A stretch of DNA of 28,435 nucleotides from Dermatophilus congolensis. Lineage in GTDB: Bacteria; Actinomycetota; Actinomycetes; Actinomycetales; Dermatophilaceae. Positions 2,599 to 18,686 of this stretch are shown here, piece after piece. Each line of letters starts with the position of its first letter. Position 1 is the stretch's first letter. The position numbers and the translations under genes are program-made. The notes under the pieces are model-generated. The model was given only the letters and a program-made list of their open reading frames with translations. It searched no databases and was not told the DNA's origin. The stretch spans positions 1 through 28,435 of the forward strand of contig JAUNUP010000037.1 in the NCBI GenBank assembly GCA_030538115.1, in the 5' to 3' direction.

Positions 2599-4197
2599 TC
2601 AGATCTCGTCTCGGAGGACGTTCTTGAGGATCTTGCCCGTGCCGGAGCGCGGGTAGTCGGTGCGGATGACGACCTCGCGCGGGTGCTTGTAGCGGGCCAA
2701 CCGGCTGTCGCAGAAGGCCCTGATCTCCTCCAGCGTCGGGGCGGTCGACGGGTCCATCGGGATGATGACAGCGACCGGCACCTCGCCCCACTTCTCGTCT
2801 TTGCGGCCCACGACCGCCACCTGGGCGACCTTCGGGTGGTCGGCGACAACGTTCTCGACCTCGGCGCAATAGATGTTCTCGCCGCCGGAGATGATCATGT
2901 CTTTGATCCGGTCGACAACGTACAAGAAGCCCTCGTCATCGACTCGCACGAGGTCGCCGGAGTGGAACCAGCCGCCCCTGAACGCCTCCGCCGTTGCGGC
3001 CTCGTCGCGCCAGTACCGGCTCATGACGCCCGGCCCCCGGTACACGATCTCGCCGACCTCCCCCGGAGCAACGGGGTTCATCATCGGGTCGACCACCGAC
3101 ACGGAGAACGAGTGGATGGCCTTGCCCACCGACCCGACTTTGCGGAACGAATCGGCCGCCGACAGCGACACCCCGGAGGCGGTGGTCTCGGTCTGCCCGA
3201 ACGCGGCGGTGATGCCGGCCTTCGGGAAGGTGTCGAGCATCCGCCGCAGCAGCGCGGCGGTGGCGGGCGCAGCGCCCCACGACATGAACCGCAGGTGTAG
3301 GTCGCGATCGCCCACACGGGGTTCGTCGCACAGGTCCTGCCACTGGGCCGGGACCATGAACGTGGTGGTGACCTTCTCGGCCTCCATCGCGTCAAGGATG
3401 GTGGTCGCGTCGAACGCGGCACTCGGCATGATGAGCGCGGTCGCACCCATGTTGAAGTGCCCGAGCCACGCGCACATCGCGGCGATGTGAAACAGGGGCG
3501 AGGCGATCATCACGATGTCGGTCTCGTCGATCATCCAGGCCCGCGCGGTGCGCATGGCGTTGGACGAGAAGTTGCCGTGCGTGAGAACCGCCCCCTTGGG
3601 GCGCCCGGTCGTACCGGAGGTGTACATGATCGCGGCGTCGTCGCCCGCCTGGGTGACGGCCGGCGGCACGGCCGGGCCGGCCTCCTCCTCGGAGAGCGAC
3701 GCACCGTGCTCCGTGCCGGCCTCGAGGGGCCACAAGGGCACGCCAGTACCGCCCATACCGGCCTCGTCCATGGCGGCGCGGGCGACCGGCATGAGCCGGT
3801 CCGAGGCCACCACCGCCGACGGCTCGGAGTTGCCGACCAGGTAGGCGACCTCGCCGGCGGAGAGCCGGAAGTTCACCGGCACGAGCACGGCACCCAGGTA
3901 CCAGCTGGCCAGCGTGACGTGCAGAAACTCCGGGCGGTTCGGTGACAGCAGAAGCACCCGGTCGCCGCGCCCGACACCGTTGTCCGCGAGTACGGAGGCG
4001 ATGTGCCGCACCTCGTCGGCCAGCTCGCGGTACGTGGTCGAGTTGCCCTCGAAGCGGAGCGCCACGTGGTCGCTCAGCTCGTGGGCGTGCCGCAGCAACC
4101 AGGCCAGCGGAGTGTTCGTGCGGGAGAGCGCGAACTCGACCTCGCCCCACGCCTCGGCTGCCGTGGATCCGGGCTGAATCTTCTGTGTCTCGGTCAT
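2599..4197 (-). CDS. Acyl-CoA synthetase / AMP-dependent ligase
   Basis: ANL-superfamily ligase that activates a carboxylic acid with ATP to an acyl-adenylate and then to the CoA thioester. The 532-residue protein shows the P-loop YTSGTTGRPKG at about 192-202, a GQTETT adenylate-binding motif, the hinge region GDLVRVDDEGFLYVVDRIKDM, and the C-terminal catalytic lysine (about Lys522) in SGTGKILK. The ATG at 4197 is chosen because AGGAG stands ten bases upstream; an in-frame extension to 4293 has no support. It is the last gene after an ABC importer, 49 bp from the second permease, so the imported compound is plausibly its substrate. Whether that is a fatty, branched, aromatic or alicyclic acid cannot be told from the sequence. 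Confidence 0.9.
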   Translation of the reverse strand: MTETQKIQPGSTAAEAWGEVEFALSRTNTPLAWLLRHAHELSDHVALRFEGNSTTYRELADEVRHIASVLADNGVGRGDRVLLLSPNRPEFLHVTLASWYLGAVLVPVNFRLSAGEVAYLVGNSEPSAVVASDRLMPVARAAMDEAGMGGTGVPLWPLEAGTEHGASLSEEEAGPAVPPAVTQAGDDAAIMYTSGTTGRPKGAVLTHGNFSSNAMRTARAWMIDETDIVMIASPLFHIAAMCAWLGHFNMGATALIMPSAAFDATTILDAMEAEKVTTTFMVPAQWQDLCDEPRVGDRDLHLRFMSWGAAPATAALLRRMLDTFPKAGITAAFGQTETTASGVSLSAADSFRKVGSVGKAIHSFSVSVVDPMMNPVAPGEVGEIVYRGPGVMSRYWRDEAATAEAFRGGWFHSGDLVRVDDEGFLYVVDRIKDMIISGGENIYCAEVENVVADHPKVAQVAVVGRKDEKWGEVPVAVIIPMDPSTAPTLEEIRAFCDSRLARYKHPREVVIRTDYPRSGTGKILKNVLRDEI

Positions 4198-4246
4198 GAT
4201 CCTGGGCTCCTCGCGGGAATCTGCTGGTCGGCTGAGGCGGTGTAGG

Positions 4247-5086
4247 TCAGTTCTTCCAACCCCGCTGGACGCGGTGGTCGAGGAGGGCGACAAGGCCGTT
4301 GGCGACGAGACCGACGAGTCCGATCACCACGAGCAGCGCCCATACGGAGGCAGCGTCGAAGGTCTGTTGGCGCACGACCAGCAGGCGTCCGATGCCGGCG
4401 CCGGCGCCGATGATGTCGATGAGCAGCGCGATGACGAACCCCTGCGAAACCGCGACCCGGGTGCCGGTCATGATGGCCGGCAGCAGGGAGGGCAACACGA
4501 TCTTGCGCATCTGGTCGAATGTGCTCAGGCCCAGCACGCGTCCCATCTCGAGGCGTACCGGCGGGATCGTCTTACGGGCGCTGATGGTGGACAGCAGGAT
4601 CGGCCAGACGATCGAGATGAGCATGACCACGGCCGACATGCCGACGGTGACGCCGAAGATGACGGTCGCGACCGGCACCAGCGCGGGCGAGGGCATGGCC
4701 CGGAAGAAGTCGAGGATGGGGCTGAGGGCTCGTTCAGCGAGGCGGCTCGAGCCGATGAACCAGCCCGCCGCCACGCCCACGACCACCGACAACGCCAGGC
4801 CGTAGACGAACGTGAGCACCGTGCGCATGAGCGCAGGCATGAGTTCGTCGGCGGCGTGCATGTTCTTGGTGGCTTCCCACCACGTGTCGGGGCTGGGAAA
4901 GGTGAACGACATCGGGCTGCCGAGCACCTGCCAGGCGATGAGGCCCAGCACGAGCGGGGTGAGGCCGAGGAGGAAGGCGGCCCGGCCGTCGATGCCCTTG
5001 CCACTGCTCTTCGCCCGTCTCGGCTGTTTCTTAGGGTTCCGCGGGTTCTTTCGAGCGGAGCGGGAGGTCGTTTCGGCGACGCTCAT
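4247..5086 (-). CDS. ABC importer permease (SsuC/TauC type), second subunit
   Basis: Integral membrane subunit of an importer in the nitrate/sulfonate/taurine/thiamine-precursor group. The 279-residue protein begins with a basic cytoplasmic tail of about 33 residues rich in Lys, Arg and Pro, followed by about six hydrophobic segments. The EAA-type loop that docks on the ATPase is visible as EMGRVLGLSTFDQMRKIVLP with the downstream PAIMTG. It starts one base after the stop of the first permease, so the two are translationally coupled. Having two different permease genes suggests a heterodimeric channel. The substrate is unknown. Confidence 0.9.
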   Translation of the reverse strand: MSVAETTSRSARKNPRNPKKQPRRAKSSGKGIDGRAAFLLGLTPLVLGLIAWQVLGSPMSFTFPSPDTWWEATKNMHAADELMPALMRTVLTFVYGLALSVVVGVAAGWFIGSSRLAERALSPILDFFRAMPSPALVPVATVIFGVTVGMSAVVMLISIVWPILLSTISARKTIPPVRLEMGRVLGLSTFDQMRKIVLPSLLPAIMTGTRVAVSQGFVIALLIDIIGAGAGIGRLLVVRQQTFDAASVWALLVVIGLVGLVANGLVALLDHRVQRGWKN

Positions 5087-5087
5087 C

Positions 5088-5840
5088 TCATCTCACCCCT
5101 TCGGGCTGGAGCCGGTTGACGATGGTGGTGAGGCCGACGCTGAACAGCCAGCCGAGCCAGCCACACACGACGACCAGCGCCCACTGCTGCCCGGTCTGCA
5201 GTGCGTTCTGGGCGCTGATGAGCCCCCACCCGATACCGAACGGGACGATGATCATTTCCGCGACGATCACGGCGGTCAGCGCAGTGACGGCCGCCAGGCG
5301 GGCGCCGACGAGCAGGCTCGGCATGATCGCGGGGAGCGTGAGCTTGCGGACCGACGTGACCTTGCTGAACCCGAACATCCGCCCCACCTCGGCGAGCCGC
5401 GGGTGCAGGCCCCGCACTCCGTCGGCGGTGTTGACGAGCATCGGCCACATCGCGGCGAGCGAGGCGACCATGATCTCGGTGCGCAGTTCGGCACCGAAGA
5501 CGAGCAGGAAGACCGGCATGATCGCGGTCACCGGCACGGTGCGCAGCACGTCGAACGACGAGTTCGTGAACGTGCGGAATCCGTTGGACAGGCCGAGAAG
5601 CAGCCCGAAGAAGCCGCCGATGGCGATGCCGATACCCGTGGCAGCGAACGCCGAGAGCACGGTGTGCACGACGGGTTCGATGAGGTCCTTGTTCTCGATC
5701 AGCTCGGTGAAGCCGACGACGACCTCGGTCGGAGACGGCAGCGAGCGCAGATCCGATAGTGGCCCGACAGTGGCTACCACCTGCCACAACGCGATGGCGA
5801 CGGCGATGACGGCCAGACCCGGAAGGTTGACGCGGCTCAT
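5088..5840 (-). CDS. ABC importer permease (SsuC/TauC type), first subunit
   Basis: Membrane subunit of the same importer, 250 residues with about six hydrophobic segments and a typical N-terminal transmembrane start (LPGLAVIAVAIALWQV). The ATPase-docking loop is EVGRMFGFSKVTSVRKLTLP followed by PSLLVG, equivalent to that of the neighbouring permease, so both belong to the BPD-transport inner-membrane family. It starts one base after the stop of the ATPase gene and ends one base before the next permease. The tight spacing indicates one mRNA. Confidence 0.9.
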   Translation of the reverse strand: MSRVNLPGLAVIAVAIALWQVVATVGPLSDLRSLPSPTEVVVGFTELIENKDLIEPVVHTVLSAFAATGIGIAIGGFFGLLLGLSNGFRTFTNSSFDVLRTVPVTAIMPVFLLVFGAELRTEIMVASLAAMWPMLVNTADGVRGLHPRLAEVGRMFGFSKVTSVRKLTLPAIMPSLLVGARLAAVTALTAVIVAEMIIVPFGIGWGLISAQNALQTGQQWALVVVCGWLGWLFSVGLTTIVNRLQPEGVR

Positions 5841-5841
5841 C

Positions 5842-6633
5842 TCAGGCGCCCTTGGCGAGGTCGATCGACTCGGCGAGCTTGTGCCGCAGCCCGAGGAATT
5901 CGGGCAGCTCGCGCGTGGTGACCTGGTGGCGCGGCCGGGGCAAGTTCACGTCGACCTCCATCGACATGTGCCCCGGCGTACCTGCAGAGACGTTGCCGGA
6001 GATCACGTACGTGCGGTCGGAGAGGTAGATCGCCTCTTCGAGGTCGTGCGTGATGAAGATGATGGTCGCCTCGTTGACCTCGTGCAGTTGCAGAATCACG
6101 TCCTGCAACGCGGCCTTGGTGAGCGCGTCGAGGGCGCCGAACGGCTCGTCCATGAGAACGACGCGTGGGTTGACGGCGAGGCCGCGGGCGATCTGTACAC
6201 GCTGCTGCATACCGCCGGAGAGGCTCGCCAAATAGTCGTTCTCACGTCCGCGCAGTTGCACGAGGTCGATGGCGCGCTCGACCCGCTCGGAGATCTCGGA
6301 CTTGCTCAGCTTTCCCTCGAGCGGGAGAGCGATGTTTTTCGACACCGTGCGCCACGGCAACAGAGCATTTCCGTAGTCCTGAAAAATCGTCACGACTCCC
6401 TCGGGTGGCCCCGAAACAGTTTTTCCCTGCAGTTTCAACGAGCCCTCAGAAATCGGAGTCAGCCCCGCCAGTGCCCGCATGAGGGTGGTTTTTCCGGTTC
6501 CCGATCGGCCGACGATGCCGATCACCTCACCCGGAGCGATGGACATCGTGATATCGGCCAGAATGCGCCGGGATCCCGACCTGTTCGACAGGTCGACCGC
6601 GACGGAGTCGAGTTCGTACATGGCTTCGGACAT
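5842..6633 (-). CDS. ABC importer ATP-binding protein
   Basis: Cytoplasmic ATPase that powers the importer. In 263 residues it has a Walker A motif GRSGTGKTT (about 43-51), a Q-loop in [15 protein letters not shown], the ABC signature [17 protein letters not shown], Walker [13 protein letters not shown], and the H-loop [11 protein letters not shown]. The LPWRTV and EPFGALD forms are typical of the SsuB/TauB/NrtD/ThiZ group. The start ATG at 6633 has AGGGAT about seven bases upstream; an internal ATG at 6621 is possible. A stable hairpin lies between this gene and the upstream binding-protein gene. Confidence 0.93.
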
Positions 6634-6741: not shown

Positions 6742-7737
6742 TCAGCGCTGGTAGATCTTGAACTTGTCGGCCGGGAATTCACCCTGAAGCACGCCATTGG
6801 TGGCGAGTACATCCCAGGACGCCTTGAACTGCGCTTCGTCGAGTTCGAGCGTGTACTTGGGAATGATTGCGTCGGCGGCCAGTTCGTCTGTGAGGTTGAG
6901 CCACGTCTTGAGAATCCGGCGCGACTCGTCTTCGTTGTCGCGGATGAAGTCCGCACCGGCCTGAACACCATCGAGCCAGGCGTTGACGGTCTCCTTGTTG
7001 TTGTTGACCCATTCGGTCTTGGCTGCGTAGTTCGACGAAGATGCGGTCGTGACCTGGCCACCCGAGGCGACCTTGTGCGCCTCGACCGCGAGGTCCTTGC
7101 CCCACAGCACGTACCCGTCGCGCTCGAGAACGCCGTAGTACGGGTTCGCGGTGAGCGCCGCGTCGATATTGCCGGCCTTGAGGTTGTCGGGGTGGCTGTT
7201 GTACGGCATCTGCACGATCTCGTACTCGTTCGGCTTTACGCCCTCCTTTGCGAGGAGGTACTTCAGCGACTCGGCGGTAAGCCCCGTAAGCGTGGGGGCA
7301 CCGATTTTCGCGCCGCGCAGTTCGCTGAGGTTGTTCAGCTTCTGCTTGGTCGCCAACGTGATGCTGACGTACTCGTCAGAGGCATTCGTCGTGTTGTTCA
7401 GAAGGGTGTTGTCCAGACCCCTCGCCTGCGACGGGGTGTACACGCCACTGTGAGTGAAAACGATATCGAACTGCTGGCCCGCCGCCGACTGCCAGGCCGA
7501 AACCTCGAGACCCTCGGTCAGGTTGATGTTCAGGCCGCGCTCACTGAAGAAGCCCTTCTCCATCGCAACCTTCACCGGAAGGCTGGAGACGCCGGGAACC
7601 ATCGTGACGCGGAGGTCTTTGGCGCCGCCGTCGCCACTGGCACCACTGTCGCCGTCACTGCCACAAGCGGCTGCGAGACCGAGAGCGCCTGCCGCGACGA
7701 TTGCGAGGGCGGACTTACGAAGGCGTGTCGAGTTCAT
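6742..7737 (-). CDS. ABC importer substrate-binding lipoprotein (NMT1/THI5-SsuA fold)
   Basis: Extracytoplasmic receptor for the importer, anchored as a lipoprotein: basic N-terminus, hydrophobic core and lipobox LAAAC with the lipidated cysteine at residue 25, followed by a Gly/Ser/Asp linker. The mature domain starts KDLRVTMVPGVSSLPVKVA and reads as a two-lobed type II binding protein of the nitrate/sulfonate/taurine or thiamine-precursor family, including the segment FFSERGLNINLTEG. Total length is 331 residues. The ATG is preceded by GAGGAT at six-base spacing. It is first in the importer operon, 130 bp downstream of an ATAG-N7-CTAT palindrome. The substrate cannot be assigned: aromatic or other carboxylates fit the adjacent CoA ligase, while sulfonates or thiamine precursors fit the family name. 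Confidence 0.9.
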   Translation of the reverse strand: MNSTRLRKSALAIVAAGALGLAAACGSDGDSGASGDGGAKDLRVTMVPGVSSLPVKVAMEKGFFSERGLNINLTEGLEVSAWQSAAGQQFDIVFTHSGVYTPSQARGLDNTLLNNTTNASDEYVSITLATKQKLNNLSELRGAKIGAPTLTGLTAESLKYLLAKEGVKPNEYEIVQMPYNSHPDNLKAGNIDAALTANPYYGVLERDGYVLWGKDLAVEAHKVASGGQVTTASSSNYAAKTEWVNNNKETVNAWLDGVQAGADFIRDNEDESRRILKTWLNLTDELAADAIIPKYTLELDEAQFKASWDVLATNGVLQGEFPADKFKIYQR

Positions 7738-7868
7738 GGGTGATCCTCATCGATCAGGGACTCTCGGTTTTCTCGCCGAAGCGCAACCTGTGTGAGCCGC
7801 GAATTTTCATTGGAGAAAGCACAACATTCAGGGGAGTTCGGCGGCAAAGACCAGAAGCCGAACCAAGT

Positions 7869-7887
7869 GATAGCCCACGCCTATGCA
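7869..7887. promoter_or_regulatory. Putative operator of the importer operon (shared motif, site B)
   Basis: GATAGCCCACGCCTATGCA contains ATAG-N7-CTAT and matches the site at 9340-9358 at 16 of 19 positions. It lies about 130 bp upstream of the lipoprotein start, in a 207-bp gap that otherwise shows no gene. The spacing fits a LysR-type (T-N11-A) or other dimeric regulator. The regulator itself is not in this window. Confidence 0.55.
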
Positions 7888-7944
7888 TGAGCATCGGCAC
7901 TGCGGAGGCGGGCCCGCGACGTCGTCGCGACCTCAGCGCGAGCG

Positions 7945-9090
7945 TCAGAGGCGCTCGACGATGGTGGCGTTGGCCTGGCCCCCGCCCTCACACATCGTCT
8001 GGAGGCCGTACTGCAGGCCCTCGCGCCGCATGCGGTGGATCATCGTGGCCATGAGTCGCGCTCCCGAGCCGCCGAGGGGGTGACCGAGGGCGATGGCGCC
8101 CCCGTTCGGGTTGAGCTTGGCCGGGTCGGCGCCGATGTCGTTCAGCCACGCGAGCGCCACGGGCGCGAAGGCTTCGTTGACCTCGAACGTGTCGATCTCC
8201 TCCAGGCTCAGCCCCGAGCGTTCGAGGGCCTTGCGAGTGGCCGGGATCGGGCCGGTCAACATGATCACCGGATCGGAGCCGACGACCACGGCGGTGTGCA
8301 CGCGGGCGAGCGGGGTGAGGCCGAGCTCGGCGGCCTTCTCGGCGGTCATGACCAGCACCGCGGCCGAACCGTCGGACATCTGCGACGAGCTCGCCGCCGT
8401 GACGGTGCCGTTCTCGGTGAACACCGAGTTGAGGGTCGCGAGCTTCTCCAGGGTGCCCCCTCGGCGCACGCCCTCGTCCTGGGTGACGACGGTTCCGTCG
8501 GCCAGCGTGATCGGCACGATCTCGTCGTCGAAGGCGCCGGAGTCCTGAGCCGCCGCGGCCCTGCTGTGGCTGAGCAGCGCGAACTCATCGCACTGCTCCC
8601 GCGGGATGCCCCACTGCTCCGCGATCATCTCGGCGCCGACGCCCTGGTTGGGGCGCGTCTGACCGAAGCGGGCACGGAAGCTGGGGCCGTAGTTGTCGGC
8701 ATCGCCGCGCGGCGAGCCCATCGGCACGCGCGTCATCGACTCGACGCCGCCGGCGACGACCGCGTCGTAGTGGCCCGCGACCACACCGGCCACGGCGAAG
8801 TGCAGGGCCTGCTGCGACGAACCGCACTGGCGGTCGACGGTGACGCCGGGGATCTCGAGCGGCCAGCCCGCCGCGAGCACCGTGGTGCGGGCGATGTCGC
8901 CGCTCTGCTCACCGGCCTGGCCGACGCAACCCCAGATGACGTCGTCGATGTGCGCCGGGTCCACTCCGACACCTCCGACGAGCCCCTGGAGCACCTGGGC
9001 CCCGAGCTCGACCGGGTGCAGGTCGGCGAAAACGCCTCCGCGCCGACCGACGGGGCTACGGACTGCGCTGACGATGACTGCTTCCCTCAC
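7945..9090 (-). CDS. Acetyl-CoA acyltransferase (thiolase), FadA family
   Basis: Thiolase that cleaves a 3-ketoacyl-CoA with CoA, the last step of a beta-oxidation cycle. In 381 residues the acyl-accepting Cys89 sits in VDRQCGSSQQ, Asn305 in NEAF, His337 in GHPLGGSG and the proton-transferring Cys367 in CEGGG, the complete catalytic set. The QCGSSQQ form resembles the group containing actinobacterial degradative thiolases such as steroid FadA5, so a catabolic role is likelier than acetoacetyl-CoA synthesis. The GTG at 9090 gives the family N-terminus (REAVIVSAVRSPVG) and has AAGGGA upstream. The open frame continues to 9318 but that stretch does not look coding. About 250 bp upstream lies a palindrome shared with the importer operon. 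Confidence 0.92.
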   Translation of the reverse strand: MREAVIVSAVRSPVGRRGGVFADLHPVELGAQVLQGLVGGVGVDPAHIDDVIWGCVGQAGEQSGDIARTTVLAAGWPLEIPGVTVDRQCGSSQQALHFAVAGVVAGHYDAVVAGGVESMTRVPMGSPRGDADNYGPSFRARFGQTRPNQGVGAEMIAEQWGIPREQCDEFALLSHSRAAAAQDSGAFDDEIVPITLADGTVVTQDEGVRRGGTLEKLATLNSVFTENGTVTAASSSQMSDGSAAVLVMTAEKAAELGLTPLARVHTAVVVGSDPVIMLTGPIPATRKALERSGLSLEEIDTFEVNEAFAPVALAWLNDIGADPAKLNPNGGAIALGHPLGGSGARLMATMIHRMRREGLQYGLQTMCEGGGQANATIVERL

Positions 9091-9339
9091 GGGCTCGATC
9101 CCTTCGCTGGGGTCGCACGCGTACGACAACGGCGCATCGGCGTGCGGATGGACGGGCGGCGCGGCGACACGGGCCGGGTTGTCACAACCGGAGCCGGGTC
9201 GACGACTGCACGTCCTCCAGATGAGGAGCGCCGACGACATCGAACGTGTCGGCGTGTGGCGGCGTGCAGGTGAGCGCCTGTATGCCTCAATCCAAAGGCA
9301 GGGCCGAAGAAGGGTCAAAGACGTAGCCGCGAAGCAACC
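9091..9339 (-). other. Long non-coding leader upstream of the thiolase
   Basis: No convincing gene lies in these 249 bases. If transcription starts near the palindrome at 9340-9358, the thiolase mRNA has a leader of about 200 nt. On the minus strand TTGACC, 18 bases and TGGATT form a possible but weak promoter inside it. At 9201-9221 a 21-base stretch matches the phnG upstream region at 18 positions. Confidence 0.4.
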
Positions 9340-9358
9340 GATAGGCCAGACCTATGCA
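9340..9358. promoter_or_regulatory. Putative operator upstream of the thiolase (shared motif, site A)
   Basis: GATAGGCCAGACCTATGCA has perfect ATAGG and CCTAT arms around five bases and matches site B upstream of the importer at 16 of 19 positions. It lies just after the phnM stop codon, so it marks the border between the C-P lyase operon and the CoA-linked genes. Confidence 0.55.
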
Positions 9359-9369
9359 GTCGTGGCTGG

Positions 9370-10536
9370 TCACGCCACGCGGGCACCCTGCCTGAACACC
9401 GAGCGCACGACCGGCACGCCGATGGAGGCGGGGTTCTGCGAGACCGGAGTCGGATGGGCATGCACGCGCACGAGATCCGCGCGCTGCCCCGGCGCGATCT
9501 CCCCGCGGTCGTCGAGTCCGACGGACCTGGCCGGGTTGGTGCTCACGAGCGCGACCGCCTCCGGCAGGTCGATCTTGCCCCGAGACACGAGGCCGAACAC
9601 CGCCTGCAGCGGGCTCGACGGCACGTAGTCGGAGGAGAGGATGTGCAGCAGCCCGCGATCGAGCAGCGTCTCGGCAGCGACGTTGCCGGAGTGGCTGCCT
9701 CCGCGCACCATGTTCGGTGCCCCCATGACGACCGACATCCCGTGTGCCACAGACGCTTCGGCCGCCGCCACGGTGGTGGGGAATTCTGCGATGCGGGCTC
9801 CGTCGGCGAGGGACTCCGCGACGTGCTCCGGGGTCGCGTCGTCGTGTGCCGCCAGCGACAGGCCACGCTCGCGGGCCGCGGCGGCCACTCCCTTCCGGTT
9901 GCGTTCGGAATTACGTTCTCCCTGCGCCATTCTCGAGTCGATGAAGGCCTCGAACTCGTGCTCCGGTACCAGGCCTTTGCCGACGTAGTAGAGCTTGTAC
10001 TGCTCGAGGCTCTCGAACTGCCGTTGTCCCGGCGTGTGGTCCATGAGCGAGACGAGCCGGATGCGTGGGTTGTCGGCATAGCGCTCGAACTGTTCGTGGC
10101 AGTCAGCGGCCGAGACCTCGCAGCGCAGGTGCAGCGCGTGGTCGGCTCTGAACAACCCCGCGGTCGCGGCCGAGTCGATCACGCTCAGCAGCTCGGCCAC
10201 GGCCTCGGCGATCGAGGCCTCCTCGTCGGCGGAGCCGAGACGCACCGCGTCGAGCACCGTCGTGGCGCCCGCGGCGGTCATCTGGGCGTCGTGGGCCAGG
10301 ACCGCGGGCAGCGCCTCCCAGCGCACGCCGGGGCGCGGGTTGAGGTGGTATTCGGCGTGATCCGTGTGCAGTTCGACGATGCCGGGCAGCACGTAGTCAC
10401 CATCGAGATCGTGGGCCGAGGGCAACTGGGTGTCGCCGATGTCGGCGACGAGGCCGTTGCGGACGAGCACCGCCGCGTGCCGCACCTCGTCACGCAGCAC
10501 GACACGGGCGTTGGACAGAACGAGTTCGGTTGTCAT
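9370..10536 (-). CDS. phnM: Alpha-D-ribose 1-methylphosphonate 5-triphosphate diphosphatase
   Basis: Amidohydrolase-fold enzyme that removes diphosphate from 5-triphosphoribosyl 1-alkylphosphonate, giving the substrate for PhnJ. The 388-residue protein has the family form of the metal site (VELHTDHAEYHLNPRPGV, about residues 54-71), a later histidine in LSLAAHDDATPEH, and an Asp in LSSDYVPSS close to the C-terminus. Its ATG overlaps the phnL stop by four bases (ATGA), so translation is coupled. It is the last gene of the phn operon here; no phnN or phnP follows. A 6-bp stem (9361-9366 with 9374-9379) overlaps its stop codon and might act as a weak terminator. Confidence 0.95.
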   Translation of the reverse strand: MTTELVLSNARVVLRDEVRHAAVLVRNGLVADIGDTQLPSAHDLDGDYVLPGIVELHTDHAEYHLNPRPGVRWEALPAVLAHDAQMTAAGATTVLDAVRLGSADEEASIAEAVAELLSVIDSAATAGLFRADHALHLRCEVSAADCHEQFERYADNPRIRLVSLMDHTPGQRQFESLEQYKLYYVGKGLVPEHEFEAFIDSRMAQGERNSERNRKGVAAAARERGLSLAAHDDATPEHVAESLADGARIAEFPTTVAAAEASVAHGMSVVMGAPNMVRGGSHSGNVAAETLLDRGLLHILSSDYVPSSPLQAVFGLVSRGKIDLPEAVALVSTNPARSVGLDDRGEIAPGQRADLVRVHAHPTPVSQNPASIGVPVVRSVFRQGARVA

Positions 10537-11306
10537 GCGCGGCCTTCCGAGGCGTGGGCGACAAGATTGTGTTCGGTGAACTCCTCGACGTGCACCACCC
10601 GGTCGGCGACCCGGTCACGCACGTCGGCGTCGTGGAAGATGCCGAGCACCCCGGTGCCGGCCGCGAGCTTCTCCTGAATCAACGCGACCACGACATCGCG
10701 GTTCGCGGCGTCGAGCGAGGCGGTCGGCTCGTCGAGCAGCAGGAGCGGGAGGTCGGCGATGAAGCCGCGGGCAATGTTGACCCGCTGCTGCTCGCCTCCG
10801 GAGAACGTCGCAGGTGGTAGTGACCACAGCGTCGTCGGGATCGCAAGCCGAGTCAGGAGGCGAGCCGCTCGTTCACGGGCTGGTCCCACCTCCACTCCGC
10901 GCTCCAGCAGTGGGCTCGCGACCACGTCGAGCGCGGGCACGCGCGGCACGCAGTGCAAGAACTGGCTGACGTAGCCCATCGCGTACCGGCGGGCCTGCAG
11001 GATCGAACGCGGATCCCCCACGGCCACATCGAGGTCGATGCCCGCAGTGCGCAGGCGGATCTCGCCTCGGTCGGCGGCGTAGTTGCCGTAAACCATCTTG
11101 AGGATCGAGCTCTTGCCCGCACCGGAGACGCCGCCGAGCACGACGCACTCCCCTGCGTGGACCTCGAAGGCGAGCCGGCGCAGCACCGTGAGGTTCTGGC
11201 CGCCCTGCAGGTGCATCGTGAACGACTTGTCGACACCAGTGAGCGCGAGGACCGGCGTGGTGGAAGTCGTGGAGGTCATGGCTGTCGTGGCTGTCGTGGC
11301 GGTCAT
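10533..11306 (-). CDS. phnL: C-P lyase system ABC-type ATPase PhnL
   Basis: ATPase-like subunit that, with PhnG, PhnH and PhnI, takes part in forming ribose 1-methylphosphonate 5-triphosphate. The 257-residue product shows Walker A GVSGAGKSS (about 59-67), signature FSGGEQQRVNIARGF and Walker B LLLLDEPTASLD. I place the start at the ATG at 11306 because AAGGGTGACC directly precedes it. The in-frame ATG at 11279, after the repeat-rich MTATTATTAM segment, has no ribosome site. The first 18 residues are almost only Thr, Ser, Ala and Met, encoded by short tandem repeats, and are likely disordered. The gene starts two bases after the phnK stop and overlaps phnM by four. Confidence 0.94.
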   Translation of the reverse strand: MTATTATTAMTSTTSTTPVLALTGVDKSFTMHLQGGQNLTVLRRLAFEVHAGECVVLGGVSGAGKSSILKMVYGNYAADRGEIRLRTAGIDLDVAVGDPRSILQARRYAMGYVSQFLHCVPRVPALDVVASPLLERGVEVGPARERAARLLTRLAIPTTLWSLPPATFSGGEQQRVNIARGFIADLPLLLLDEPTASLDAANRDVVVALIQEKLAAGTGVLGIFHDADVRDRVADRVVHVEEFTEHNLVAHASEGRA

Positions 11307-11308
11307 GG

Positions 11309-12088
11309 TCACCCTTGCAGGATCGAAGCGACGAGGAGCTGGGTGTAGGGCGCCTGCGGGTCGTCGAGCACCCGGTCGGTGAGTCCCGATTCGATGACCC
11401 CGCCGTCCTTCATCACCAGCGTGCGGTGCGAGATGAGGCGCGCGACCGCTAGGTCGTGGGTGACCACGACGACGGCGAGGCCGAGGTCGCTGACGAGCGT
11501 GCGGATGAGGTCGAGCAGCTTGGCCTGCACCGACACGTCGAGCCCGCTCGTCGGTTCGTCCATGAACACCAGGCGCGGCGAGACGACGAGGTTGCGGGCG
11601 ATCTGCAGCCGCTGCCTCATGCCGCCGGAGAACTGGGCCGGGACGTCGTCGACGCGGTCGCGAGGGATCTCGACCCGCTCGAGCCAGCGGATCGCCTCCG
11701 CCCGGATGTCGCCGTAGTGACGCCATCCGTTGGCCATGAGCGGCTCGCCGACGTTGCCGCCCGCACTCACGTGCATACGCAGGCCGTCGGCGGCGTTCTG
11801 GTGCACGAATCCCCATTCGCTGCGCCACAGCCGGCGCACCGCGGTCTCCGACAGGTCGGCGAGATCGACCACTCGCCCGTCGGCGAGGCGGTAACGGACC
11901 GTGCCCTCGTCGGTGCTCAGCCGCTGCGACAAGGTGCTGAGCAGTGTCGACTTGCCCGATCCCGACTCGCCCACCACGGCAAGCACCTCGCCCGGCCACA
12001 GCTCGACATCCACCCCGCGACAGCCGTACCTGGTGCCGTAGCGGTGCCCGACACCGCGGGCCTGCAGCAGCGGGGTCGCGTCGCTCAT
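11309..12088 (-). CDS. phnK: C-P lyase system ABC-type ATPase PhnK
   Basis: ATPase-like subunit that docks on the PhnGHIJ core and supports the C-P lyase cycle; it is not part of a membrane transporter. The 259-residue protein has Walker A GESGSGKST (about 40-48), a Q-loop in WGFVHQNAADGLRM, signature FSGGMRQRLQIARNLV and Walker B LVFMDEPTSGLD. The sequence VELWPGEVLAVVGESGSGKSTLL and the N-terminal GVGHRYG are typical of PhnK. The ATG overlaps the phnJ stop by four bases. Oligopeptide-type ABC ATPases are similar, but the position between phnJ and phnL settles the identity. Confidence 0.95.
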   Translation of the reverse strand: MSDATPLLQARGVGHRYGTRYGCRGVDVELWPGEVLAVVGESGSGKSTLLSTLSQRLSTDEGTVRYRLADGRVVDLADLSETAVRRLWRSEWGFVHQNAADGLRMHVSAGGNVGEPLMANGWRHYGDIRAEAIRWLERVEIPRDRVDDVPAQFSGGMRQRLQIARNLVVSPRLVFMDEPTSGLDVSVQAKLLDLIRTLVSDLGLAVVVVTHDLAVARLISHRTLVMKDGGVIESGLTDRVLDDPQAPYTQLLVASILQG

Positions 12089-12990
12089 CGGGTGACCTCG
12101 CTGGTCGCAGCGGCCTCAGTAATCACATGGGGCTCAGGTGCACCGGCGCCTGCAGCCATGCCGACCGTCTCGCAGTGGTCGCTGTCGGAGCAGACGAACA
12201 TGTCGCCTCCTTGGTCGTCGGTGATCACCTGGTCGAGGTAGACACCCGTCGATCCGCACAGCGCGCACGGGCGCTCGAACTCCTGCGGTTCGAACGGAAA
12301 GTCCTCGAACCCGAGGCTCTCGACCGGGGTGTACGGGGGTACGGCGTAGATGCGCTTCTCGCGCCCGGCTCCGTACAGGTGCAGCGCCGGGCTGTGGTCG
12401 AGCTTGGGGTTGTCGAAGCTCGGGGTCGGCGAGGGAGACATGAGGTACCGGCCGTTGACCAGCACCGGATAGTCGTAGGTCTTGGCGATGTGGCCGTACT
12501 TGGCGATGTCCTCGTAGAGCTTGACGTACATGAGGCCGTACTCGTCGAGGGCGTGCATGCGCCGGGTCTCGGTCTCGCGTGGCTCGAGAAAGCGCAGCGG
12601 CTCGGGGATCGGCACCTGGTAGACCATGATCTGTCCCTCGGTCAGCGGCTTCTCGGGGATGCGGTGCCGGGTCTGGATGACCGTGGCCGCATCCGTGCTG
12701 GTCGTAGTGGACATGCCGACGACCGTGGCGAAGAAGGCCCGGATCGAAACCGCATTCGTCGTGTCGTCTGCGCCCTGGTCGATGACCTTGAGCACGTCGT
12801 CGGGCCCGATGATCGCGGCGGTCAACTGCACCCCGCCCGTACCCCAGCCGCGCGGCAACGGCACTTCGCGGGAGGCGAACGGCACCTGGAAGCCGGGGAT
12901 CGCCACGGCCTTGAGCAGCACGCGGCGGATCATCCGCTTGGTCTGCTCATCGAGATAGCCCAGGTTGTAGTGGATGGGATCGGTCGTCAT
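12085..12990 (-). CDS. phnJ: Alpha-D-ribose 1-methylphosphonate 5-phosphate C-P lyase
   Basis: Radical SAM enzyme that breaks the carbon-phosphorus bond, releasing an alkane such as methane and ribose 1,2-cyclic phosphate 5-phosphate. The unusual cluster motif CX2CX21CX5C is exact: Cys242, Cys245, Cys267 and Cys273, each one position later than in E. coli (241, 244, 266, 272). The radical-bearing glycine equivalent to E. coli Gly32 is Gly33 in AIPGFQVPFASRE. The core closely follows E. coli PhnJ over nearly the full length (DQGADDTTNAVSIR, IQTRHRIPE, GAGREKRIYAVPP). The 301-residue protein should be catalytically competent. Four-base overlaps with phnI and phnK show one coupled operon. Confidence 0.98.
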   Translation of the reverse strand: MTTDPIHYNLGYLDEQTKRMIRRVLLKAVAIPGFQVPFASREVPLPRGWGTGGVQLTAAIIGPDDVLKVIDQGADDTTNAVSIRAFFATVVGMSTTTSTDAATVIQTRHRIPEKPLTEGQIMVYQVPIPEPLRFLEPRETETRRMHALDEYGLMYVKLYEDIAKYGHIAKTYDYPVLVNGRYLMSPSPTPSFDNPKLDHSPALHLYGAGREKRIYAVPPYTPVESLGFEDFPFEPQEFERPCALCGSTGVYLDQVITDDQGGDMFVCSDSDHCETVGMAAGAGAPEPHVITEAAATSEVTR

Positions 12991-14123
12991 GACTGGGCCT
13001 CCTGCCCGTTCGACCCGATGCGTGTGCTGTGCGCTTCGTCAGTGCTGTGTCGCTCGTCGTGGTCTCGACGCAGTCGCTTGACGAGGTGCAACTCGGCCTG
13101 GAAGTCGACGTAGTGCGGCAGTTTGAGGTGCTCGACGAAGCCCGCGGCCTGTACGCCGTCGGCGTGGCTGAGCACGAATTCCTCGTCCTGCGCGGGCGAG
13201 ACGACCCGCTCGCCGAGTTCGTCGGCCCGCAGGGCCCGGTCGACGAGCGACATCGACATGGCCTTGCGCTCACCGCGCCCGAAGACGAGACCGTAGCCGC
13301 GCGTGAACCGCGCCGGCGTGTCTGCGCTGCCGGTGAACTGGTTGATCATATGGCATTCGGTGACCTCGATGCGGCCCAGCGGCACAGCGAAGCCCAGTTC
13401 GGGAGCGTCGAACTCGACCTCCACCTCGCCCACGCGGATCTCGCCGGCGAACGGGTGCGTGTTGCCGAAGCCGCGTTGCGTGGAGTAGCCGAGCGCGAGA
13501 AGGAATCCCTCGTCGCCCCTGGCCAGGCCCTGCAGGCGCTCGGCGCGGCTCATCGGGTAGACCGACGGTTCGCGGGTGAGGTCGGCGGGCTCGGGGTCGT
13601 CCCAGTTCTCGCGACGGTCGGGTTCGAGCAGCGCGCCGGCTCCGAGGATGTCGGAGACGCGCGGCATAGCCACGGGCGTCCCGGGATCACCGTTGGGATC
13701 AGTGTCGGGCTCGGGCCCGGCCGTGTCGCGCTCGGTGAACAACCGGTGCGTGTAGTCGAACGTCGCGCCGAGCTGCTGGCCACCCGGAATGTCTTTGAAC
13801 GGAGCCGAGATCCGGCGCTGGGGCGGCAGCGCGGCCGTGTCGATGGGCTCGGTGTACCCGAACCGGGGCAAGGTGGTGCGGAAGGACCGCACCAGCGTTA
13901 CCGCCTCCAGCACGTCGCCTTGCGTCTGCAGCAGCGCCCTGGCCGCGAGATCCGGGTCGTACAGCGATCCCTCGGTCATCACCCGCGAGACCAGCACCGG
14001 CAGTTGCCCCGCCACCGCCTCGTGGCCGATCACGGGCACCTCGGGGTTTCCGCGCCCCTCCTTGGCGAGCAGGGCATGCGCGTTGGCGATGGCCTTCTCG
14101 CCACCCTTGACCGCGACGTACAT
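12987..14123 (-). CDS. phnI: C-P lyase core subunit PhnI (purine nucleosidase / transferase)
   Basis: Core subunit that, with PhnG, PhnH and PhnL, exchanges the adenine of ATP for a phosphonate. The protein starts MYVAVKGGEKAIANAHALLA, the family N-terminus, with ATG at 14123 forming a TGATG overlap with the phnH stop and GGAGAGG about eight bases upstream. It has 378 residues against about 354 in E. coli. Extra length is in a Pro/Asp/Gly-rich loop at about residues 128-147 and in a polar C-terminal tail rich in His, Ser and Thr (DEAHSTRIGSNGQEAQS). The conserved segment MSRAERLQGLARGDEGFLLA and the later HLKLPHYVDFQAELHLVK identify it. Confidence 0.95.
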   Translation of the reverse strand: MYVAVKGGEKAIANAHALLAKEGRGNPEVPVIGHEAVAGQLPVLVSRVMTEGSLYDPDLAARALLQTQGDVLEAVTLVRSFRTTLPRFGYTEPIDTAALPPQRRISAPFKDIPGGQQLGATFDYTHRLFTERDTAGPEPDTDPNGDPGTPVAMPRVSDILGAGALLEPDRRENWDDPEPADLTREPSVYPMSRAERLQGLARGDEGFLLALGYSTQRGFGNTHPFAGEIRVGEVEVEFDAPELGFAVPLGRIEVTECHMINQFTGSADTPARFTRGYGLVFGRGERKAMSMSLVDRALRADELGERVVSPAQDEEFVLSHADGVQAAGFVEHLKLPHYVDFQAELHLVKRLRRDHDERHSTDEAHSTRIGSNGQEAQS

Positions 14124-14764
14124 CAGGCCACCTCTCCGGTCGCCGCAGGCACGACGGCGCTCGTCCGTGGCAGGGCGACGATCGACTCGTCGGTGACCGC
14201 AACGAGGTCGACTCCCCGAGGGAACAGCTCGCCGTTGTGCCGCCAGGTCGTCACGAAATCCGCCGGCGCCCACGGGGCGTCGATGGTGATCGAGCCGTCG
14301 ATGCCCGGCCCGGTCGCGCAGAACGTCCCTCCCTCGCCCTGCTCCCGATCCCGGGCGTCGAGCAGGATCGTGGCCGACTCGTGCGGAGCCTCGTCGGTGC
14401 CCAAACGCAGGTCGCGCCACGAAGGGATCGTGTCGGGCGTCGCGATGACGAACGCCGCGTCCATGCTGTCGGCGACCGGTCGGACTCCGGCGTGGAAGGC
14501 GAGGTACGCCATCGCCTCCGCGTCGTTCGCGAGCGTCGGGTGTGCCCAGACCGGAGTGTCCTCATCGAGCAGAGTCAGGGCGACGGCGGCGAGCCCGCCT
14601 CCGAGGGCTGCCGGCGCCCCAGCGAGCGGCGGAATCGCCACGGTGCGCCCCGGATACGACAGCGCCTCGAGCACACCGCGGAATACCCGTTGCGCCCCCA
14701 CGGCAGAGTCGGCTGGGTTGGCGGGGTCGGGGCTCCCGGCGGGTACGTGCATGTTCTGGCTCAT
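14123..14764 (-). CDS. phnH: C-P lyase core subunit PhnH
   Basis: Structural and accessory subunit of the PhnGHIJ complex, needed for the nucleotide exchange step. The 213-residue protein has the conserved start AQRVFRGVLEALSYPGRTVAIPP at about residues 24-46 after a short Pro/Asp-rich leader, and the motifs LTLLDEDTPVW and GPGIDG. E. coli PhnH is about 194 residues, so this one has a slightly longer N-terminus. Its ATG overlaps the phnG stop by four bases, and its stop overlaps the phnI start by one base. Confidence 0.93.
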   Translation of the reverse strand: MSQNMHVPAGSPDPANPADSAVGAQRVFRGVLEALSYPGRTVAIPPLAGAPAALGGGLAAVALTLLDEDTPVWAHPTLANDAEAMAYLAFHAGVRPVADSMDAAFVIATPDTIPSWRDLRLGTDEAPHESATILLDARDREQGEGGTFCATGPGIDGSITIDAPWAPADFVTTWRHNGELFPRGVDLVAVTDESIVALPRTSAVVPAATGEVA

Positions 14765-15288
14765 CCGTTCTCCCTGGCCACAGTGAAGAAGTCGACCTTG
14801 GTGCTGCGCGCCTCGGCATCGCGCAGGGCGTCGCGCTGGTGCTGCCTGCGCTCCAGCGGCTCGACGACATCGGCGAGCACGCGCTCACGCACGGTCTCGT
14901 CGGCGAGCAGACCGTCGAAGGTCGCGGCCAACCAGGCGTGCGCGTGGGCCGTGCCGAGCACGTAGGCGCTGCCTACCTGATCCGCGGCAAGCGGTTCACC
15001 GCTCAGACGCAGCGTCGCGCGCGTCACGGCCGCCTCTCCGACGTTGAACCGGTCGCCGCCGCCTCCGATGCGGCCCCGCACCATCACCAGGCCCACCTGC
15101 GGTCCGCGGATTGCGTCGACCTGCGGCTTCGGCTCCCAGGCGGCCCAGGCTTCGGTGAGCTCGGCGGAGGTGGCGCGGGCGAGCACCCCCATCCACCGGC
15201 GCCTGGGTGCGTTCGCGTCATGCGCCTGAGCTGCCTGAGCTGTGCCTGCTGTCTGAGCTGTCTCGGTTGTCGGGGACGAAACGGTCAC
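14761..15288 (-). CDS. phnG: C-P lyase core subunit PhnG
   Basis: First gene of the phn operon; PhnG forms the PhnGHIJ core with its partners. The product is 175 residues when started at the GTG at 15288, which has GGAGG five bases upstream. A GTG at 15300 would add four residues but lies over that ribosome site. The family core begins at RRRWMGVLARATSAEL (about residue 29) and includes GPQVGLVMVRGRIGG and the FNVGEAAVTRATLRL segment. The first 28 residues are a Thr/Ala/Gln-rich run coded by short repeats, absent from the about 150-residue E. coli protein. PhnF probably represses this promoter. Confidence 0.93.
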   Translation of the reverse strand: MTVSSPTTETAQTAGTAQAAQAHDANAPRRRWMGVLARATSAELTEAWAAWEPKPQVDAIRGPQVGLVMVRGRIGGGGDRFNVGEAAVTRATLRLSGEPLAADQVGSAYVLGTAHAHAWLAATFDGLLADETVRERVLADVVEPLERRQHQRDALRDAEARSTKVDFFTVARENG

Positions 15289-15326
15289 GCGGACCTCCAC
15301 GGCTGTGCTCTCGTGCGGACGACTGC

Positions 15327-15332
15327 ACGCTA
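15327..15332 (-). promoter_or_regulatory. Putative -10 box of the phnG operon
   Basis: On the minus strand TAGCGT fits the actinobacterial TANNNT -10 consensus and lies about 38 bases upstream of the phnG GTG. The matching -35 region, 17 bases further upstream, is poorly conserved and overlaps the GTCTA-N6-TAGAC palindrome. Confidence 0.35.
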
Positions 15333-15351
15333 TCCAGAATGAACAGAAGTC

Positions 15352-15367
15352 GTCTATCTATCTAGAC
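15352..15367. promoter_or_regulatory. Putative PhnF operator
   Basis: GTCTATCTATCTAGAC is an inverted repeat (GTCTA, six bases, TAGAC) in the 153-bp gap between the divergent phnG and phnF genes. Its GT...AC ends and TA-rich core are in the style of sites bound by HutC-subfamily GntR regulators. It overlaps the likely -35 region of phnG, as expected for a repressor, and lies about 75 bp upstream of phnF. Binding by PhnF is inferred. Confidence 0.55.
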
Positions 15368-15426
15368 AACTTTTCGATGACCGTGGGGTGAAGACCTGGC
15401 GACACCGCCGAAGCGGGCTTGCGCGG

Positions 15427-15432
15427 TAATCT
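15427..15432 (+). promoter_or_regulatory. Putative -10 box of phnF
   Basis: TAATCT fits TANNNT and ends nine bases before the phnF ATG, so the mRNA would have a leader of only one to three bases. No Shine-Dalgarno sequence is visible. Confidence 0.45.
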
Positions 15433-15441
15433 CGACAGACC

Positions 15442-16191
15442 ATGTCTCCCGCAACGCGCTCGACCAGCGGCTACTCCGCCTGGCGCCTCATCGCCGAGGA
15501 ATTGCGCAGCCAGATCGCCGACGGCACCTATCCCTCCGGCTCCAAACTGCCGACCGAGAGCGAGATCGCCGACCGCTTCGGCGTGCACCGCAACACGGCC
15601 CGTCAGGCGATCGCGTCGCTTGTGGCCGACGACCTCGTCGAGAAGAGGCACGGCAGCGGAACCTTCGTCATGGACCAGACCCTGCTCGTCCACCGCATCG
15701 GCCTGCGTACCCGGCTAAGCGACAGCGGCAGGCAGGGCGATTCGACCTCGATCCGGCTACTCTCGGCGGCGCTGGAGAGCGCTCCGCCCGCCGACGTGGC
15801 GACCCACCTCGACCTGAGCGGGCGAGCCGCTCTACGGATCGAGACGACCAGCGCCGTCAACGAGAACACGATCTCGCGGGCAACGTCGTGGTTCGACGCC
15901 GACCTGACCCCCGGACTCGACGAACACCTCGCCCGCACGCGGTCGATCACATCCGCCCTGCGTGCCGTGGGAATCGACGACTACCTGCGCGCCTGGACGA
16001 CGATCGGGGCACGTACCGCCACCGCGGCCGAGTCGACCGACATAGGTGTACCTCAGGGCACCACCGTGCTCGTGCTGCGGTCGCTCAACACCCTGATCGA
16101 CGGCACGCCGCTGCAGTACGCGAACACCCGGTTCCGGGCCGACCGAGTCGAGCTCGACGTGACCAACGACGGGCTCACGCGACACGACTGA
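15442..16191 (+). CDS. phnF: GntR/HutC-family transcriptional regulator of the phn operon
   Basis: DNA-binding regulator, 249 residues. A winged helix-turn-helix occupies about residues 11-76 (WRLIAEELRSQIADGTYPSG, TESEIADRFGVHRNTARQAI, HGSGTFV), followed by a UTRA effector-binding domain to the C-terminus (GTTVLVLRSLNTLIDGTPLQ). It is divergent from phnG and shares its control region, the usual PhnF arrangement. In Mycobacterium smegmatis PhnF is a repressor of phosphonate/phosphate uptake genes, so repression lifted under phosphate stress or by a ligand is the likely mode. The ligand is not evident from the sequence. Confidence 0.9.
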   Translation: MSPATRSTSGYSAWRLIAEELRSQIADGTYPSGSKLPTESEIADRFGVHRNTARQAIASLVADDLVEKRHGSGTFVMDQTLLVHRIGLRTRLSDSGRQGDSTSIRLLSAALESAPPADVATHLDLSGRAALRIETTSAVNENTISRATSWFDADLTPGLDEHLARTRSITSALRAVGIDDYLRAWTTIGARTATAAESTDIGVPQGTTVLVLRSLNTLIDGTPLQYANTRFRADRVELDVTNDGLTRHD

Positions 16192-16296: not shown

Positions 16297-17394
16297 TCAG
16301 GCGAGCACCTCCACAGTGCGGTAGTCGCCGACGCGAGAGCCGAGCTGCGCGAGGTGCGCTCGCGAATCGCCCCAGGTGTGCGTGATGGCTCGCAGTCGCG
16401 CGGTGAAGTGGCCGACAGGGAACTCGGCCGTCACACCGATACCGCCGTGCATCTGGATCGCGTCGCGGCCGATGAGCTTCGCCGCCTTGTCGACGACGAC
16501 GCGGGCGCGCAGCACGGTGGCGATGTCGAGCGGCTGCACGTCGGCCACCATCGCCGCGAACAGGGTTGCGCTGCGCGAGAGTTCGAGCGCGGCGTACATG
16601 TCGGAGGCGCGGTGCGTGAGGGCCTGAAAAGTCTCGAGCTTCACCCCGAACTGCTGCCTCGTGCGCAGGTAGTCGGCCGTCATCGTCAGGGCCTCGCCCA
16701 TCGCACCCACGGCCTCGGCGCACAGCAGCACCGCACCGAGGGCGATGCCCTCCTGCACGGCCTGCTCGGCCAGTTCGCCCGTGGCCAGCAGCGTGGCCGG
16801 GGTCGAGTCGAAGTCGACCTGCTCGACGCTCACGCCGGGGCTCTCCACGAGGAACAGCGCCGTCGTGCCGTCGACCGCGGCCGTCGCGACGAGGTGCGTA
16901 GCCGCCGGGGCGTAGCGAACCGGCGCCTTCGATCCGGTGAGCGTCCACCCGTCACCCGCCTGCTCCGCCCTCACCTCCACCGGAGCGGGGAACGGCTGGG
17001 TCCACGCCCGCAACGGCTCGGTGAGAGCCGGGACGACCAGCGCCTCACCCTCCGAGATGCCGCCGAGGATCTGGGTGCGCAGCTCGTCGGAGGCGCAGCG
17101 GCGCACCATGGCACCGGCGGCGACGATCTCGGCCAGCGGCACCTGCACCCGCGAGCGACCCAGCTCGGTGGCGGCCGCTGCGAGGTCGGCGAATTCCGCT
17201 CCGACACCGCCGTCGTCCTCCGACCACGGCATCGCCGGGAGGCCGAGTTCGACCAGGGCGCCCCACAGCTCGGGGTCGTGGGCGGCGGGAGCGGCCGAGC
17301 GACCCGCCTCCGCGGCGGGTTTGCCGTGACGGGCGAGAACCCCGCGCACGGCTTCGGCCAGGGCCTTCTGCTCTTCGGTCACGATGAAGTCCAC
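16297..17394 (-). CDS. Acyl-CoA dehydrogenase family protein, small subunit type
   Basis: FAD-dependent acyl-CoA dehydrogenase fold, 365 residues. N-terminal helical domain MDFIVTEEQKALAEAVRGVL, middle beta domain with a GSKAPVRYAPAATHLVATA segment, and C-terminal helical domain with RTRQQFGVKLETFQALTHR and the FAD-contacting QMHGGIGVTAEFPVGH. The C-terminal region where single-chain enzymes carry YEGT ends instead in TWGDSRAHLAQLG, with no catalytic glutamate. This resembles the small partner of heterotetrameric actinobacterial dehydrogenases (the PimD or ChsE type). The gene starts with GTG 12 bp after the stop of the larger dehydrogenase gene, with AAGGGG upstream. Confidence 0.88.
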   Translation of the reverse strand: MDFIVTEEQKALAEAVRGVLARHGKPAAEAGRSAAPAAHDPELWGALVELGLPAMPWSEDDGGVGAEFADLAAAATELGRSRVQVPLAEIVAAGAMVRRCASDELRTQILGGISEGEALVVPALTEPLRAWTQPFPAPVEVRAEQAGDGWTLTGSKAPVRYAPAATHLVATAAVDGTTALFLVESPGVSVEQVDFDSTPATLLATGELAEQAVQEGIALGAVLLCAEAVGAMGEALTMTADYLRTRQQFGVKLETFQALTHRASDMYAALELSRSATLFAAMVADVQPLDIATVLRARVVVDKAAKLIGRDAIQMHGGIGVTAEFPVGHFTARLRAITHTWGDSRAHLAQLGSRVGDYRTVEVLA

Positions 17395-18576: not shown

Positions 18577-18643
18577 GTGTTCGAAGGTAGCCAGGGCACC
18601 CACCGCCCGACCATGCCCCTGACCAGTGCGATCAGTTAACCGA

Positions 18644-18662
18644 CCGTGTGGCGCTACCTATG
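18644..18662. promoter_or_regulatory. Degenerate copy of the shared operator (site C) with adjoining palindrome
   Basis: This stretch matches site A upstream of the thiolase at 13 of 19 positions, including all of ACCTATG, but lacks the ATAG arm. It overlaps a separate perfect palindrome, ACCTA, seven bases, TAGGT, at 18656-18672. Both lie 70-95 bp upstream of the dehydrogenase pair. Confidence 0.35.
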
Positions 18663-18686
18663 GTGACTAGGTCCCCAGCACACGGC

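Follow-up and report, generated by a model that had tools for sequence, protein, structure and literature searches.

The window, that is, the whole 28,435-nucleotide stretch of Dermatophilus congolensis DNA that was analysed, holds the genes of an importer and an acyl-CoA ligase, a thiolase and a pair of acyl-CoA dehydrogenases, together with ahpC and a C-P lyase block. The genes are arranged as follows:

149 to 712, minus strand: ahpC
2599 to 4293, minus strand: AMP-forming acyl-CoA ligase, FadD5-like; the true start probably lies within the frame
4247 to 5086, minus strand: permease of the ABC importer
5088 to 5840, minus strand: permease of the ABC importer
5842 to 6633, minus strand: ATPase of the ABC importer, with relatives in L001 and L002 (77-78%)
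6742 to 7737, minus strand: solute-binding protein, NMT1/NitT-TauT type, with seven homologs (63-96%)
7945 to 9090, minus strand: thiolase, ortholog of the second thiolase of Janibacter (81%) and Kribbia (83%)
9370 to 16191: C-P lyase block, phnG-phnM on the minus and phnF on the plus strand, between pimD and the thiolase and outside the regulon
16297 to 17394, minus strand: PimD-like acyl-CoA dehydrogenase, below the PimD cut-off
17407 to 18603, minus strand: PimC-like acyl-CoA dehydrogenase, below the PimC cut-off, with relatives in genomes G001, G002, G055, G066, and G098

L001 and L002 are the two loci to which a scan of named genomes led, from Janibacter sp. Soil728 (G001) and Kribbia dieselivorans (G002), respectively. 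We took the thiolase to start at 9090, in a frame that is open to 9318, because no family match starts before residue 77-78. Used as a query against a database, with scoring limited to the 7990 candidates that had most words in common with it, the binding protein returned 15 proteins, seven of them 64-96% identical; against solved structures it gave one match at 1e-5, the putative exported protein 3qsl.

Two palindromes stand upstream of these minus-strand genes. As the preliminary description of this DNA had reported, GATAGCCCACGCCTATGCA (7869-7887) and GATAGGCCAGACCTATGCA (9340-9358) are identical at 16 of 19 positions, share the core ATAG-N7-CTAT, and precede the importer operon and the thiolase, respectively. 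The first base of the core lies 147 bases from the start of the solute-binding protein gene and 265 bases from that of the thiolase. A degenerate third copy, said to match at 13 of 19 positions, had been placed before the acyl-CoA dehydrogenase pair at 18644-18662. We rejected it as such, having found matches at 2 or 3 of 19 positions in the same orientation and at 7 or 8 when reversed; the best register within 6 bases reaches 11 of 19. Since nine places in the window reach 13 of 19, the match at 18644-18662 is no evidence. Two features had been overlooked: an exact palindrome at 816-830, before ahpC, and a GTCTTTG box 18 bases behind both of the palindromes described above. ATAG-N7-CTAT thus occurs in exactly three copies in the window (shuffle mean 0.02; none of 100 shuffles reaches three). 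An RNA element was rejected, as no Rfam family reached its gathering score in the window. The elements are:

7869 to 7887, no strand assigned: palindrome, upstream arm of the importer composite element
9340 to 9358, no strand assigned: palindrome, upstream arm of the thiolase composite element
7845 to 7884, minus strand: composite promoter element of the importer operon, with ATAG-N7-CTAT, a linker containing TTCG, and GTCTTTG (-35 region)
9316 to 9355, minus strand: composite promoter element of the thiolase
816 to 830, no strand assigned: third ATAG-N7-CTAT palindrome, OxyR-type, before ahpC and outside the regulon

The first two palindromes form the upstream arms of a more extended signature, ATAG-N7-CTAT-N18-GTCTTTG, which occurs twice in the window, before the importer operon and before the thiolase. 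When eight exact-palindrome promoters were compared in the direction of their genes, all had the box at 18 bases, as GTCTTTG in seven and as GTCTTGG in one. GTCTTTG is present nine times in the window on both strands together, and on the minus strand solely at the two sites. A first-order Markov model predicts 5e-7 occurrences of the composite in the window, a figure that is after the fact, because the box was found on these very promoters; genome searches are, for this reason, the fairer test.

The composite was found in 4 of 186 genomes of the family, at 10 places (three each in G001, G002, and G066, and one in G055). Its spacing was 18 at all 10, in a search that permitted 17-19, and every one of them precedes import, thiolase or enoyl-CoA hydratase genes; the reversed control had no place in the same 186 genomes. 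Among 396 genomes of the order, some of which overlap the family set, it occurred in one, G001 itself, so that a single family accounts for all occurrences of the signature in this analysis. The bare palindrome is far less specific. As ATAGG-N5-SCTAT it is present in 57 of the 186 family genomes, and as ATAG-N7-CTAT it is only slightly commoner genome-wide than its reversed control (5 places versus 2 in G001, 4 versus 3 in G002, 3 versus 1 in G066, and 2 versus 1 in G098). Ten of the 14 exact palindromes in these four genomes have the box at 18 bases (nine GTCTTTG, one GTCTTGG), and all 10 precede genes of this catabolic set; the four without a box are two in G001 and two in G098, one of the latter before ahpC.

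The earlier proposal that one regulator governs both uptake and thiolysis gains support from these relatives: in Janibacter and Kribbia, exact sites precede both the ortholog of the binding protein and thiolases, and hardly any genome that lacks these genes has the longer signature. The thiolase that bears the site in the two species is a paralog (59%) of the window thiolase, not its ortholog. No composite was found before the second thiolase, which is the ortholog (81-83%), in the Janibacter, Kribbia, and G055 loci. A long inverted repeat closely precedes the Kribbia copy of this second thiolase (L002, upstream of 17041, minus strand). Kribbia has one further exact palindrome, before a second NMT1 protein, and one of the Kribbia sites, L002:2392, falls within an open frame of 251 residues that has no family matches and is probably spurious. 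The composite also precedes an enoyl-CoA hydratase gene in G001, G066, and G002 (68-85% mutual identity) and in G055 (78%), and a degenerate composite precedes a metallo-hydrolase gene in Janibacter and Kribbia. The G066 site at L054:11871 leads into the DctP and DctQ genes of a TRAP importer (L054:9035-11871), the DctP protein of which matches solved TRAP binding proteins of several kinds; no relative of the ABC importer was found in the two G066 loci read.

The acyl-CoA dehydrogenases had been counted into the regulon on the strength of the copy at 18644-18662. That ground is lost, and their membership is supported only by way of the half-sites before pimC in relatives. Two half-sites with a period of 22 bp (ATAG-N18-ATAG) gave four hits in 249 kb of loci, which, overlaps being counted, represent three distinct places, all three before pimC (in Janibacter, Kribbia, and G066); with any other period from 14 to 34 the number of hits was 0 to 3. 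The pair is absent before pimC in G055 and G098. The window has:

18657 to 18663, minus strand: single CCATAGG half-site before pimC, weak; three relatives have two, 22 bp apart

Between pimD and the thiolase lies the C-P lyase block, with phnM to phnG at 9370-15300 on the minus strand and phnF at 15442-16191 on the plus strand; phnF scores 214.3 against TIGR02325 (cut-off 156.8). In Kribbia (L002) and G055 (L080), pimC, pimD, and the second thiolase are contiguous on one strand, and the window has the three genes in the same order and on the same strand, with the block between them. The simplest reading is that the C-P lyase block was inserted and split the catabolic operon, and that the thiolase is now served by its own composite promoter. 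The sequence GTCTATCTATCTAGAC, at 15352-15367 between phnG and phnF, we take, from HutC-type sites, to be a plausible PhnF operator.

We aligned 13 sites, two from the window and 11 from relatives. Because they were picked by palindrome and box, the letters of both are fixed by choice; columns outside the selection are fixed as well, namely G at 5 and C at 25 (13 of 13 each). T is found at 24 in 11 sites (G in the others) and at 62 and at 67 in 12 each, position 0 is C or T, 23 is W, and 26 is R. The conserved layout is ATAGG-N6-CTAT, a short half-site (mostly WTCG) 22 bp after the start of the first arm, GTCTTTG, and T-N4-T at -10 spacing; the palindrome has the form T-N11-A in both window sites and in the 11 sites of relatives. 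We took positions 38-43 as the -35 and 62-67 as the -10, a poor one with its T-N4-T, which puts the start near 74. With start points predicted from the conserved -10 positions, the palindrome would be centred at -66 and the half-site, in the second repeat, at -44. For the window, the 13-site alignment predicts leaders of 74 bases (importer) and 192 bases (thiolase), from the following elements:

7811 to 7823, minus strand: predicted -10 hexamer (7818-7823) and start (~7811) of the importer operon
9282 to 9294, minus strand: predicted -10 hexamer (9289-9294, TGGATT) and start (~9282) of the thiolase

Published centres of the paired LysR-type sites, IR1 and IR2, are -65/-43 for GcvA and IlvY, -63/-41 for MetR, and -66/-44 for OxyR and CynR (PMC5002191); the centres predicted here equal those given there for OxyR and CynR.

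Beside these catabolic genes, Janibacter, Kribbia, and G066 carry a tail-to-tail pair of LysR genes. Their products, LysR1 and LysR2, have HTH_1 and LysR_substrate domains. LysR1 is located behind the first thiolase in Janibacter and Kribbia, and the two proteins are 61% identical. At 1e-50, LysR1 was present in 4 of the 186 family genomes (G001, G002, G066, and G098), three of which have the composite, and LysR2 stands tail to tail with it in all four. The gene for LysR2 and the next target gene point away from each other, and the stretch between them holds a composite that is full in G066 and degenerate in G001 and G002. The composite thus occurs in three of four genomes with LysR1 versus 1 of 182 without it (~1.5e-5 by hand, kinship ignored). 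Two genomes run against a simple rule: G055 has a composite site and a best LysR1 match of 28%, and G098 has LysR1 (54%) and LysR2 and lacks the composite. A FadD5 match of only 142 residues suggests decay in G055. Neither LysR1 nor LysR2 of the relatives has a match in the window at 1e-4, which fits the earlier suggestion of a regulator acting from elsewhere in the genome; it is probably an ortholog of LysR1 or LysR2 encoded outside the window. The window does contain the gene of a GntR regulator, phnF (15442-16191), which by its family belongs to the C-P lyase operon.

Taken together, the regulon is real and of a known kind. We consider it highly probable that the palindromes are the IR1 operators of two promoters activated by a LysR-type regulator, for which an ortholog of LysR1 or LysR2 is the probable candidate. 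Judged from the sequences, the tripartite promoter probably switches on the uptake and breakdown of a carboxylic acid in a few actinobacteria. IR1 would be the upstream high-affinity operator, or recognition site, of each promoter, and a LysR-type tetramer would bind it near -66 together with the weaker half-site near -44. RNA polymerase would then be able to use the weak -35 and -10 once an inducer is present, which is probably the acid itself or the corresponding CoA thioester. Activation would lead to uptake and CoA activation (binding protein, ATPase, permeases, and ligase) and to thiolysis, and in relatives also to expression of the hydratase operon, of the first-thiolase operon and, through the variant site, of pimC-pimD.

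The published OxyR consensus (PMC5720770, PMC5002191) has the core ATAG-N7-CTAT as its repeat unit, and the window's own ahpC carries such a site. OxyR itself might therefore bind both palindromes and place the importer and the thiolase in a peroxide response. We looked at 29 loci (L020-L048), drawn from the 57 genomes with ATAGG-N5-SCTAT and compared with AhpC only; counting four of these and one more, the palindrome lies just before ahpC relatives (74-79%) in five family genomes. The six ahpC promoters, from the window and these five relatives, have another downstream stretch, CAAACGATC in four and variants in two, and all six lack GTCTTTG at the fixed distance; CAAACGATC is found behind neither of the two catabolic sites of the window. 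Because the layout of the ahpC site differs in this way, a single regulon for all three exact palindromes was ruled out. The proposed weight matrix, if built from the palindrome alone, would mix in the OxyR-type sites before ahpC. Against OxyR there is also the restriction of the composite to four family genomes. In addition, LysR1, to which this test was confined, scores 55.8 bits (Janibacter) and 65.8 bits (Kribbia) against the OxyR model, the cut-off being 329, and the two proteins contain one and no cysteine, respectively, versus the two redox cysteines expected of OxyR. We therefore regard control by OxyR as very improbable. With a shared core and a different downstream layout, two LysR-type circuits appear to coexist in this genome.

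A palindrome regulator of another family, such as TetR or GntR, could also be imagined, with GTCTTTG as merely a shared core promoter, given that many families use palindromic operators and that G055 retains its site without a close LysR1. A palindrome ~66 bp upstream of the predicted start, followed by a half-site at a distance of 22 bp, is, however, the layout of a LysR-type activator (PMC5002191); the pimC promoters of three relatives have half-sites 22 bp apart, and among those cluster genes that were put through family searches no TetR, GntR or similar regulator was noticed. We think this unlikely. PhnF is the only regulator identified in the window, and the site at 9340-9358 lies just behind phnM, so that the sites might be thought part of phosphonate use. 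Both of them lead into the thiolase and the importer, though, not into phn genes, the identical promoter serves these genes in relatives, and the window PhnM has no match at 1e-15 in the loci of 12 relatives, which leaves PhnF with next to no probability. Hardly any weight, finally, can be given to a functionless resemblance by chance or passive descent. The relatives belong to one family, in which some conservation is expected, and the bare palindrome hardly exceeds its reversed control; but the linkers vary while spacing and boxes are constant, the spacing being invariant wherever the composite was found, and the promoter also precedes the unrelated TRAP importer.

An LysR-activated promoter of the kind we favor resembles the IR1/IR2 promoters of GcvA, IlvY, CynR, and OxyR (PMC5002191) in its 15-bp inverted repeat of the form T-N11-A centred near -66, in a weaker second site 22 bp downstream, in its weak promoter, and in having one LysR gene divergent from a target. 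It differs from them in that the second site is a short half-site, GTCTTTG is conserved at -35, two LysR genes stand tail to tail, and the regulator is unlinked to its targets in the window. With the OxyR regulon (PMC5720770) it has in common the identical palindrome core, a separate site of this sort being present before ahpC in the window. In contrast to that regulon, the targets are acid catabolism genes, the downstream boxes are others, and LysR1 fails the OxyR model.

LysR regulons of the BenM/CatM type serve aromatic acid catabolism, with a pathway acid as inducer, catabolic targets, and an N7 palindrome with the arms ATAC/GTAT. The present system shares the LysR activator, the catabolic targets, and the N7 palindrome, whereas its arms are ATAG/CTAT and its genes have the appearance of a CoA-dependent pathway resembling beta-oxidation; among the annotated proteins there was no ring-cleaving dioxygenase. 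KstR2, a TetR repressor with another operator, controls a steroid ring degradation regulon, which is likewise actinobacterial and has acyl-CoA dehydrogenase pairs, an NMO/FabK-like reductase, SDR, FadD, and a thiolase; the proteins annotated here included no CoA transferase of the ipdAB type. The clusters of the relatives contain acyl-CoA ligases, dehydrogenase pairs, several hydratases, SDRs, an NMO/FabK-like reductase, a family III CoA transferase, a TPP enzyme, and two thiolases. Our guess, which this set of enzymes would suit, is that the substrate is a carboxylic acid, either cyclic or branched, and that its degradation proceeds through CoA thioesters.

No description of this regulon was found in the open-access literature searched. 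We tentatively entertain a more far-reaching possibility, which we hold to be rather doubtful: the regulon would be an undescribed one, with two LysR paralogs, encoded tail to tail, that together recognise a single tripartite promoter; the palindrome core of this promoter is that of OxyR, and the downstream boxes alone would keep it separate from OxyR. The promoter would be a portable module, kept during an exchange of ABC and TRAP importers and added to the thiolase after the phosphonate operon had split pimC-pimD-thiolase, and the acid, perhaps alicyclic, would be degraded by a new route. The replacement of one importer by another under the same promoter suggests that regulation can persist after the transporter it served is gone, and the sharing of the OxyR core within one chromosome raises the question of how crosstalk between two LysR proteins is avoided. 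Because of its specificity, the signature allows the regulon to be listed by sequence and regulator candidates to be named, which offers a direct route to the acid, via inducers on one reporter.

LysR1 was present in 1 of 394 genomes of the class, and since this is G001 itself, its occurrence in distant actinobacteria provides no independent test. Homologs near 50% among the database matches listed are from Streptomyces, Nonomuraea, and Nocardioides. The open reading frame L001:6826-7635 was rejected as a separate protein, being the antisense of LysR2. On another contig, Kribbia has a second tail-to-tail LysR pair (L057:8918-10689; 48% to LysR1), with a partial signature at L057:7879.
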